NCBI GenBank assembly: GCA_001783525.1
Contig: MFMS01000002.1
Span: forward strand, 208,135-244,959
Length of the DNA: 36,825 bases
Source: Candidatus Kaiserbacteria bacterium RIFOXYB1_FULL_46_14
GTDB taxonomy: Bacteria; Patescibacteriota; Minisyncoccia; Phycocordibacterales; UBA918
Direction: 5' to 3'
The translations under genes and the position numbers were made by a program. A model generated the notes under the pieces. That model saw only the letters and a program-made list of their open reading frames with translations, was not told where the DNA came from and searched no databases. How positions within the stretch are numbered: the stretch's first letter is position 1; every line of letters starts with the position of its first letter. Below are positions 32,465-34,103 of the stretch, one piece after another.

Positions 32465-33094
32465 CTACTTTCTAAAATATCCTCTAATCAAAATCGGCAA
32501 AACACTACCAAAGACCATAAACAATCCACCGAGCATCAATACCTCATCGTAGCCAAACTCTTCACCAACAAAGCCACCGATGACCATAAACAAACCTATC
32601 CCAAGCGAGTAAAGTGTTTGGTACATCCCTACGGTTTGTCCGAACTGCTCGCTGTTGATATTGCTGTAAAAAAGAATGCGCCAAGAAGCCAGATTGATTA
32701 CGGAAAAAATTCCCATAAAAAACATCGCTACATAGAGCTGCCAGATAGCCGTAGAAAAACTGAGCAGAATATAAGTAAAACCACCCAGCATACAAGCAAT
32801 AGAAAGACCCCAAACCTCATCCAGATACCCCTTATTCTTATCAAACCAGCGTCCAATTGGAATAGCCGCAAATGCTCCGACGACTCTATGTATCATTAGT
32901 GCCACTCCGACATTAAGTACGCTCGCACCGTCAATGTAAGTCACCACAAACAGCGCCAGGGCCACAGATACGAAAGCATCAGCTCCCCAAAAGGTAACGT
33001 CGTTAGCAGTCAGTGTTCTGATGATGTAAGTACGCGCAGAAACTGATTTTACACCAGCCTTAGAACTATGTTTTTGATGACGATCAATTTCCAT
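32465..33094 (-). CDS. Short MFS-like membrane protein (about half a canonical MFS)
   Basis: ~6 predicted hydrophobic helices; AIPIGRWFDKNKG resembles the MFS loop 2-3 motif; only 209 aa. Confidence 0.65.
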   Translation of the reverse strand: MEIDRHQKHSSKAGVKSVSARTYIIRTLTANDVTFWGADAFVSVALALFVVTYIDGASVLNVGVALMIHRVVGAFAAIPIGRWFDKNKGYLDEVWGLSIACMLGGFTYILLSFSTAIWQLYVAMFFMGIFSVINLASWRILFYSNINSEQFGQTVGMYQTLYSLGIGLFMVIGGFVGEEFGYDEVLMLGGLFMVFGSVLPILIRGYFRK

Positions 33095-33114: not shown

Positions 33115-33798
33115 TTATTCGTAAATAACATCCTTTCTTTCCACCACCACTTTCCAGCGGCGACGTTTGGCGTGTGTTAGGAGTGCCTGATTAGGATTGA
33201 AACAAATCGGATGCTCTACCGCTTCAAGAAGTGAGATGTCGCCTTCAGTGTCACCGACACCGATAGAGCCTTTGTCAGTAAGACCTTCTTCCTTTAAAAC
33301 ACGAGCCACGATGTTGGCTTTGTTTCCGATCAGATGCTCTCCTTCGACAACGCCAGTGAAACGGTCTTGTGAGCCTATCTCGTAGATACGCCCATAGACT
33401 TTATCAAAGCCATACTGACGACAAAATTCATCCAACACTGTCTTTGGTGATTGTGAGATGGCGACTAGGTAATAACCTTCTTTCTTAAGTGAGGCTATTA
33501 AGTCGCGAGTGTATCGATAAACGCGTTTACTATGAAGCGACACCACCTCGCGGCCAATGTCGGCCAGATCGCCATAAAAAACGCCCTTGATGTGATGGCG
33601 AAAAGAATCCACCACGGCGTCTATATATTCTTCGTAGTTACCCTCACGATCAATCCATTTCTGTTTGGCTTCCAAATAATATTCCTCTGCCTCGGCAGGA
33701 AAAATCTTACGCTCAACCAATTTCTCTACCAACTCAATCAACAAACTTGAGCGAAATACCGTCCCGTCAATATCAAAAAAAGCCACCGGTTTCTGCAT
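33115..33798 (-). CDS. HAD-superfamily (HAD-IB/SerB-like) phosphatase
   Basis: VAFFDIDGTVFRSSLLIELVEKL; YYLVAISQSPKTVLDEFCRQYGFDKVYG; NKANIVARVLKEEG...GSIGVGDTEGDISLLEAVEHPICFNPN. Confidence 0.92.
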   Translation of the reverse strand: MQKPVAFFDIDGTVFRSSLLIELVEKLVERKIFPAEAEEYYLEAKQKWIDREGNYEEYIDAVVDSFRHHIKGVFYGDLADIGREVVSLHSKRVYRYTRDLIASLKKEGYYLVAISQSPKTVLDEFCRQYGFDKVYGRIYEIGSQDRFTGVVEGEHLIGNKANIVARVLKEEGLTDKGSIGVGDTEGDISLLEAVEHPICFNPNQALLTHAKRRRWKVVVERKDVIYE

Positions 33799-33827
33799 AC
33801 AATAATTGTAGCAGAAACCGGTGGCTT
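33775..33827 (-). terminator. Perfect intrinsic terminator overlapping the HAD start codon
   Basis: Minus strand AAGCCACCGGTTTCTGC-(TACAATTATTGTAT)-GCAGAAACCGGTGGCTT, 17-bp arms, continuing TTTTTTT. The ATG is at 33798-33796. Confidence 0.8.
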
Positions 33828-33848
33828 GTACGTAAAGGATCGGTAGTA

Positions 33849-34031
33849 TCAGCGCGGCGTGTTGTTGACGACTTCTGACTCCTGTCTGGAAAGGGTACGC
33901 GGGTTGCCGATCTTGCGGCCGGACTTGTCCACAACGTATCCGGTGTAATCACCGGAGCTGCCGAGGCCGTTGACATAAAGCCCGCCCTTGGAATGTGGAA
34001 TTGTGATGCCAACCTTACTCATATCCGCCAT
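33849..34031 (-). CDS. Small protein (60 aa), unknown function
   Basis: In-frame ATG at 34031 with GGAGA upstream; consensus-like promoter (34075-34103) and downstream terminator define a compact transcription unit. Confidence 0.65.
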   Translation of the reverse strand: MADMSKVGITIPHSKGGLYVNGLGSSGDYTGYVVDKSGRKIGNPRTLSRQESEVVNNTPR

Positions 34032-34047
34032 CGGGATTCTCCTTTTT

Positions 34048-34071
34048 TCTCTCACCGGAATTAGTGAGAGA
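34048..34071 (-). other. 5'-UTR hairpin of the 60-aa gene
   Basis: TCTCTCAC-TAATTCCG-GTGAGAGA on the minus strand, just before AAAAAAGGAGA and the ATG. Confidence 0.6.
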
Positions 34072-34074
34072 TAC

Positions 34075-34103
34075 ATTGTACCTTATTATTTGTTAAATGT
34101 CAA
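34075..34103 (-). promoter_or_regulatory. Sigma70-type promoter
   Basis: Minus strand TTGACA (34103-34098), 17-bp spacer, TACAAT (34080-34075). Confidence 0.75.

Follow-up and report, generated by a model that had tools for sequence, protein, structure and literature searches.

The start codon of a HAD-IB family hydrolase gene in Candidatus Kaiserbacteria bacterium RIFOXYB1_FULL_46_14 lies inside a perfect 17-bp hairpin. Judging from its bases, this hairpin is probably an intrinsic terminator that ends transcription of an orphan ORF upstream, and the HAD gene would be transcribed leaderless from inside the same hairpin. Both components, the intrinsic terminator and the leaderless -10 box, are well known. 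The manner of their fusion is unusual. Positions refer to the window, which is the whole 36,825-nt stretch of DNA that we analyzed. The junction contains the following features.

33115..33798, minus strand: HAD-IB family hydrolase gene (227 aa), starting at ATG 33798; it has profile matches, and the ATG position is kept in relatives.
33775..33781, minus strand: T7 tract, made of the end of an Ala codon and the Phe-Phe codons; it covers the last two stem bases and five further Ts.
33780..33796, minus strand: 3' arm GCAGAAACCGGTGGCTT, made of the G of the ATG, codons 2-6 and the first base of codon 7.
33797..33810, minus strand: loop TACAATTATTGTAT; five of its bases (33810-33806) pair with 33802-33798 in an inner helix, and the T at 33797 is bulged.
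33805..33813, minus strand: putative extended -10 box of the HAD gene, TGC-TACAAT (hexamer 33810-33805, TGn 33813-33811), 6 nt before the ATG.
33811..33827, minus strand: 5' arm AAGCCACCGGTTTCTGC of the hairpin, read directly from the sequence; the homology with the relative G018 upstream of HAD starts here.
33849..34031, minus strand: orphan small ORF of 60 aa (MADMSKVG...NNTPR), the presumed gene of the terminated transcript.
34075..34103, minus strand: putative promoter of the orphan ORF, TTGACA-17-TACAAT, with 11 of 12 consensus bases.

The source genome measures 0.63 Mb (632 kb) and is 98% complete. Among named relatives, the closest is G018 (93% identical HAD); its contig matches Candidatus Kaiserbacteria RIFCSPHIGHO2_01_FULL_46_22. 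The order of genes around HAD is a 339-aa gene, a bactofilin-like gene of 375 aa, a variable gap, HAD, an MFS-like gene of 209 aa and a convergent RNase J. It is common to the source genome, G018, G020 and G001. The MFS-like gene (32465-33094, minus strand) has about half the usual length of a transporter, and it is comparably short in the other three genomes.

The HAD protein scores 110.2 bits against TIGR01490 (HAD-IB), above the curated cut-off of 98.3, and also matches the Pfam HAD family PF12710. The ORF listing holds no in-frame ATG, GTG or TTG upstream of ATG 33798, which rules out an alternative upstream start. The GTG at codon 5 is a possible start, but the position conserved in relatives is the ATG. 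Two observations concern other homologues of this gene. In G030 (Parcubacteria bacterium OLB19; loci L018 and L090), a T8 run replaces T7 in the Phe-Phe codons and puts the ATG out of frame; this is either a genuine frameshift or a sequencing error in the homopolymer. Homologues with 56-57% identity occur at L102 (PNBO01000069.1) and L104 (JADGRD010000333.1), on contigs labelled Myxococcales and Proteobacteria, through horizontal transfer or mis-binning.

Read on the minus strand, AAGCCACCGGTTTCTGC (33827-33811) is followed by TACAATTATTGTAT (33810-33797), GCAGAAACCGGTGGCTT (33796-33780), TTTTT (33779-33775) and GATA. The first-pass annotation had described here a perfect 17-bp hairpin followed by Ts. 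The sequence directly confirms it: the 17 pairs between 33827-33811 and 33796-33780 are all Watson-Crick, and the run of Ts is seven long. The hairpin encloses the TGCTACAAT and the ATG of HAD. As had also been claimed, the ATG (33798-33796) sits at the junction of loop and stem, with its A and T in the loop and its G as the first base of the 3' arm. Likewise, HAD codons 2-8 (QKPVAFF) supply the 3' arm and the T-tract. The loop folds further through a 5-bp TACAA/TTGTA helix with one bulged T, so that the real loop is 3 nt.

The RNA of the hairpin has a predicted minimum free energy of -36 kcal/mol. Shuffled sequences average -11.75 (sd 2.77; z -8.75), and none of 200 was as good. In the window, the 17-mer with up to three mismatches is found solely as the two arms (chance expectation 0.07). 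The stem-loop is stable and contains G+C, and the U-tract comes directly after the stem, as in an intrinsic terminator. An assembly artefact is ruled out, since the independent assembly of the sister species G018 carries the same hairpin with substitutions. So is a dispersed repeat or mobile element, as neither BLAST of the genome nor the 17-mer search of the window found a second copy. Matches to Rfam stay at chance level, which rules out a known RNA family.

The 245-kb contig holds 73 T-tailed hairpins with perfect stems of 10-24 bp, many of them about 15-25 nt after a stop codon. The HAD hairpin fits these terminators in stem length, in its T-tail and in its distance of 21 nt from the upstream stop. 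Its apparent loop of 14 nt is larger than the 3-4 nt usual in this genome, though it folds further. A simple terminator scan, which allowed loops of up to 8 nt and no bulge, did not list it because the apparent loop and the bulge exceed these limits. Among the 73, it is the sole one over a start codon.

We extended the survey to 1.4 Mb from five species (the 245-kb contig of the source genome and stretches of about 1.2 Mb from four relatives). With a threshold of 9 bp, six other candidates overlap a start: one in G018, one in G001 and four in G002. None is convincing. They involve doubtful small ORFs, starts called too far upstream, or an unconfirmed start, as in the perfect hairpin at G002 330058 before a 7,532-aa ORF. 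The HAD hairpin is the only convincing start-overlapping case in these 1.4 Mb. Terminators that end 0-30 nt before a called start are commoner (27 in the five sets), and several are then followed by a -10-like box. The HAD junction is therefore the extreme of a trend toward compact terminator-start junctions in the genus.

The TACAAT in the loop had been proposed as a candidate -10 box for leaderless transcription. It lies where it was placed, 6 nt before the ATG (33810-33805), and the proposal is supported by the genome-wide pattern of gaps, by four other species and by conservation at HAD. The -10 motif of bacterial leaderless (TA-led) genes, TANNNT, lies some 12 bp before the start codon (Zheng et al. 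2011, PMC3160421; for Deinococcus-Thermus, PMC12340547). The first base of TACAAT is 12 bp before the HAD ATG. The ATG is preceded by TTTCTGCTACAATTATTGT, with no Shine-Dalgarno, and no convincing -35 element was seen for the box.

We counted -10-like hexamers (TAnnnT, 5/6 or better) before the 235 starts of the 245-kb contig. They occur at gaps of 6, 7, 8 and 9 nt before 19, 9, 7 and 9 starts, and at most other gaps before about 1-2 starts each. The gene calls are a simple hexamer-based set, and individual starts are uncertain, but the peak at gaps 6-9 is clear. The peak recurs in four other species of the genus, and Shine-Dalgarno-like motifs give a separate one. These boxes imply leaderless mRNAs from many starts of the source genome. 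At HAD, TGCTACAAT-6 nt-ATG and the extended -10 recur in G018 and G020. Across HAD loci, TAnnnT stands at gap 6 in 20 of 54 (background about 1-2 per position) and at gaps 5-9 in 35 of 54, against 4-11 in control windows. The spacing and conservation of the HAD box thus match the published sequence signature of leaderless genes (PMC3160421, PMC12340547).

We propose the following mechanism. A transcript from the TTGACA/TACAAT promoter at 34103 would carry the 60-aa orphan ORF and end at the hairpin, whose 3' arm and U-tract would be the first HAD codons. RNA arriving from upstream would fold the full hairpin and stop within the Phe-Phe codons. In any read-through RNA, the ATG would be locked at the junction of loop and stem. 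The HAD mRNA itself would be leaderless and start at or next to the ATG, from the extended -10 in the loop. Such an RNA has no 5' arm, so it would not form the hairpin and would be freely elongated and translated; its first 60 nt are predicted to fold weakly (-8.1 kcal/mol). In this way, leaderless initiation would resolve the conflict between the two roles. A single stretch of bases would thus end the upstream unit and supply promoter, start and coding sequence to the following one. The sequences themselves show the structure, its rarity, the -10 spacing with its conservation, the distribution over lineages and the constraint on the arm; from this arrangement we infer termination, the transcription start, insulation and the expression of the orphan ORF. 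In its full form, the junction would insulate itself: incoming transcripts would be stopped and be untranslatable as HAD, the polymerase started at the ATG would escape, and the T-tract of the Phe-Phe codons would have been recruited as a U-tract. For this fuller scheme, we consider the chances about even.

The hairpin could instead be kept mainly for translation, hiding the HAD start in read-through RNA, with termination incidental. The position of the ATG, with 17 bp of stem immediately after it, speaks for this, as does the weak structure of a leaderless RNA without the arm. However, with T7 following the stem at once, the hairpin has all the parts of an intrinsic terminator, and it stands as far from the upstream stop as terminators of this genome typically do. 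In G020, moreover, the gene order is the same and an ordinary terminator, GGCCGATGC-GCGA-GCATCGGCC-TTTTT, lies directly before TGCTACAAT-6 nt-ATG; this classic terminator leaves the start unhidden. A role mainly in translation is thus unlikely. The G020 case also means that the junction has a terminator by other means when the arm is absent.

We compared the 5' arm across relatives. Upstream of HAD, detectable homology with G018 begins exactly at the arm (BLAST query position 74, 33827). The remainder of the gap is unalignable between the two genomes and holds an unrelated ORF in G018. At the fourfold-degenerate sites of HAD, the source genome and G018 are identical in 36 of 88 (41%), and neutral sites are therefore near saturation. 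Nevertheless, G018 keeps 15 of the 17 arm bases, with one bulged base, and its loop is identical in 14 of 14. The probability for the arm alone at the fourfold rate is about 8e-5. Both substitutions in the arm are C to T opposite G; they keep the RNA pairing (G-U) and break the DNA symmetry. The stem energy is -25.1 kcal/mol in G018 versus -33.2 in the source genome. This comparison indicates that the 5' arm is under constraint in this pair.

G001 keeps 7+7 bp of the stem, with AAGCCAC...TTTCTGC pairing with GCAGAAA...GTGGCTT around an interrupted middle. Its loop carries an inserted nested hairpin of about 80 nt. Within some 84 nt before the HAD ATG (locus L070), this inverted repeat, CCCCCACACC...GGTGTGGGGG, stands between TACA and AAAAT. 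It splits the presumed ancestral -10 and leaves a TAAAAT at a gap of 6 nt from the ATG. The 371 kb of its contig contain no clear further copy of the nested hairpin. The hairpin element may be decaying in G001.

When 55 loci were scanned for complementarity, the source genome (L001), G018 (L002) and G001 (L004) stood out, with z of -7.3, -4.5 and -3.3; the next value is -2.1. The remaining 52 lack the complementary arm. In a tree built from six concatenated proteins, G020 groups with G001 (92% support) beside the source genome with G018. On this tree, the common ancestor of the four would have had the arm, and G020 would have lost it. This history is tentative, as it rests on six genes and one moderately supported node.

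These comparisons bear on two checks named in the first-pass annotation. The complementary arm does not belong to the gene in general, since relatives keep the N-terminal codons without it; codons 1-7 of G020 are identical to those of the source genome. This is the outcome that the annotation had named as refuting, and it counts against a conserved system. True covariation of the arm with the HAD N-terminus did not appear either, as the coding side hardly varies; the two G-U-compatible changes in the 5' arm are the sole evidence in that direction, and there are no compensatory double changes. Since genomes with and without the arm have almost the same coding side, it was probably the arm that was fitted to the coding sequence and not the reverse. 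The idea that terminator, promoter and start share the same bases is supported in part, for this lineage, by the terminator-like hairpin, the spacing of the -10 and the arm kept in G018; it does not extend to the gene in general.

The arm could also be a functionless neutral by-product, such as a template-switch copy of the coding strand. Its presence in three species only would fit, and so would its complementarity to a coding sequence that exists without it in G020. However, a neutral copy would hardly stay identical at 15 of 17 bases with fourfold sites at 41% and the flanking intergenic DNA unalignable, and we regard this origin as improbable.

The hairpin follows the stop codon of the orphan ORF at a distance of 21 nt. 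The ORF has a sigma-70-type promoter with 11 of 12 consensus bases, from which we infer its transcription. It is also listed with an earlier start, as 33849..34076, and GGAG precedes it at 34042-34039. It matches no Pfam or NCBIfam family, and none of the other 37 genomes of the genus has a homologue. It may not be a protein gene. In its presumed 5' leader, a short stem-loop, CTCTCAC...GTGAGAG (34070-34045, minus strand), stands directly before the AAAAAAGGAG motif. Between the bactofilin-like gene and HAD, the source genome, G018 (L068, between 8366 and 8933) and G001 (L070) each have a small ORF of their own. All three ORFs carry a strong GGAG motif; many genes of the genus, by comparison, look leaderless. 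In the G020 gap, no small ORF is obvious.

A strong upstream promoter, a short ORF and a terminator just before HAD also resemble the layout of an attenuator. HAD would then be transcribed from the upstream promoter, with formation of the terminator under the control of, say, a ligand or the translation of the small ORF. However, Rfam offers no known riboswitch at this site, the small ORFs differ from species to species, and the upstream sequence is unconserved even in G018, with neither a sensor nor a conserved leader. The private -10 box of HAD by its ATG is conserved. A regulated leader is accordingly a poor candidate. Poorer still is the idea that the inverted repeat acts at the DNA level, for instance as an operator dyad spanning the -10 box, with RNA folding irrelevant: the dyad centre is close to that box, but the arms are 17 bp long, the T-tail is on one strand only, the G018 substitutions spare only the RNA pairing, and the arm has no second copy in the window or, by BLAST, in the genome.

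We return to the hairpin as a terminator with a leaderless start inside it. Like the intrinsic (Rho-independent) terminators of a Term-seq atlas (PMC12207403), it has a GC-containing stem with an immediate U-tract about 20 nt after a stop. In contrast, the following gene's first codons, not intergenic DNA, provide its 3' arm and U-tract; its stem is longer and its apparent loop larger than usual. With bacterial TA-led leaderless genes, HAD shares the TACAAT 12 bp before the ATG, the lack of a Shine-Dalgarno and a spacing common to many genes. Unlike theirs, its putative -10 box, predicted from sequence, lies within the loop of a strong hairpin. The compact junctions of the genus (HAD in G020, G000 contig C2 137566 and G002 370947) also have a terminator ending about 0-30 nt from a leaderless start, and T-tail, spacer and -10 adjoin or share bases. 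However, those terminators end before the start codon, whereas the HAD hairpin reaches 19 nt into the gene. Attenuators of 5' leaders likewise place a terminator between an upstream promoter and a gene; HAD differs in having its own -10 inside the hairpin, and no sensor was found.

In the open-access literature, we found nothing specific on a terminator overlapping a downstream start codon. The same literature did not yield the fusion seen here, in which the loop contains a -10 box and the Phe-Phe codons of the HAD motif form the U-tract, or published transcript-start evidence for Patescibacteria. Our literature search also found no papers reporting leaderless promoters in this lineage.

If termination and start are confirmed, this junction would illustrate the degree to which the boundary between two genes can shrink in a streamlined genome. 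About 50 bases would serve at once as terminator, promoter, start codon and coding sequence, which would be possible because the leaderless mRNA of HAD cannot form the hairpin. Beyond this gene, the gap survey points to frequent leaderless starts in this Kaiserbacteria genus, with the -10 box 6-9 nt ahead of the start codon. Such starts, if common, bear on the annotation of gene starts in Patescibacteria.
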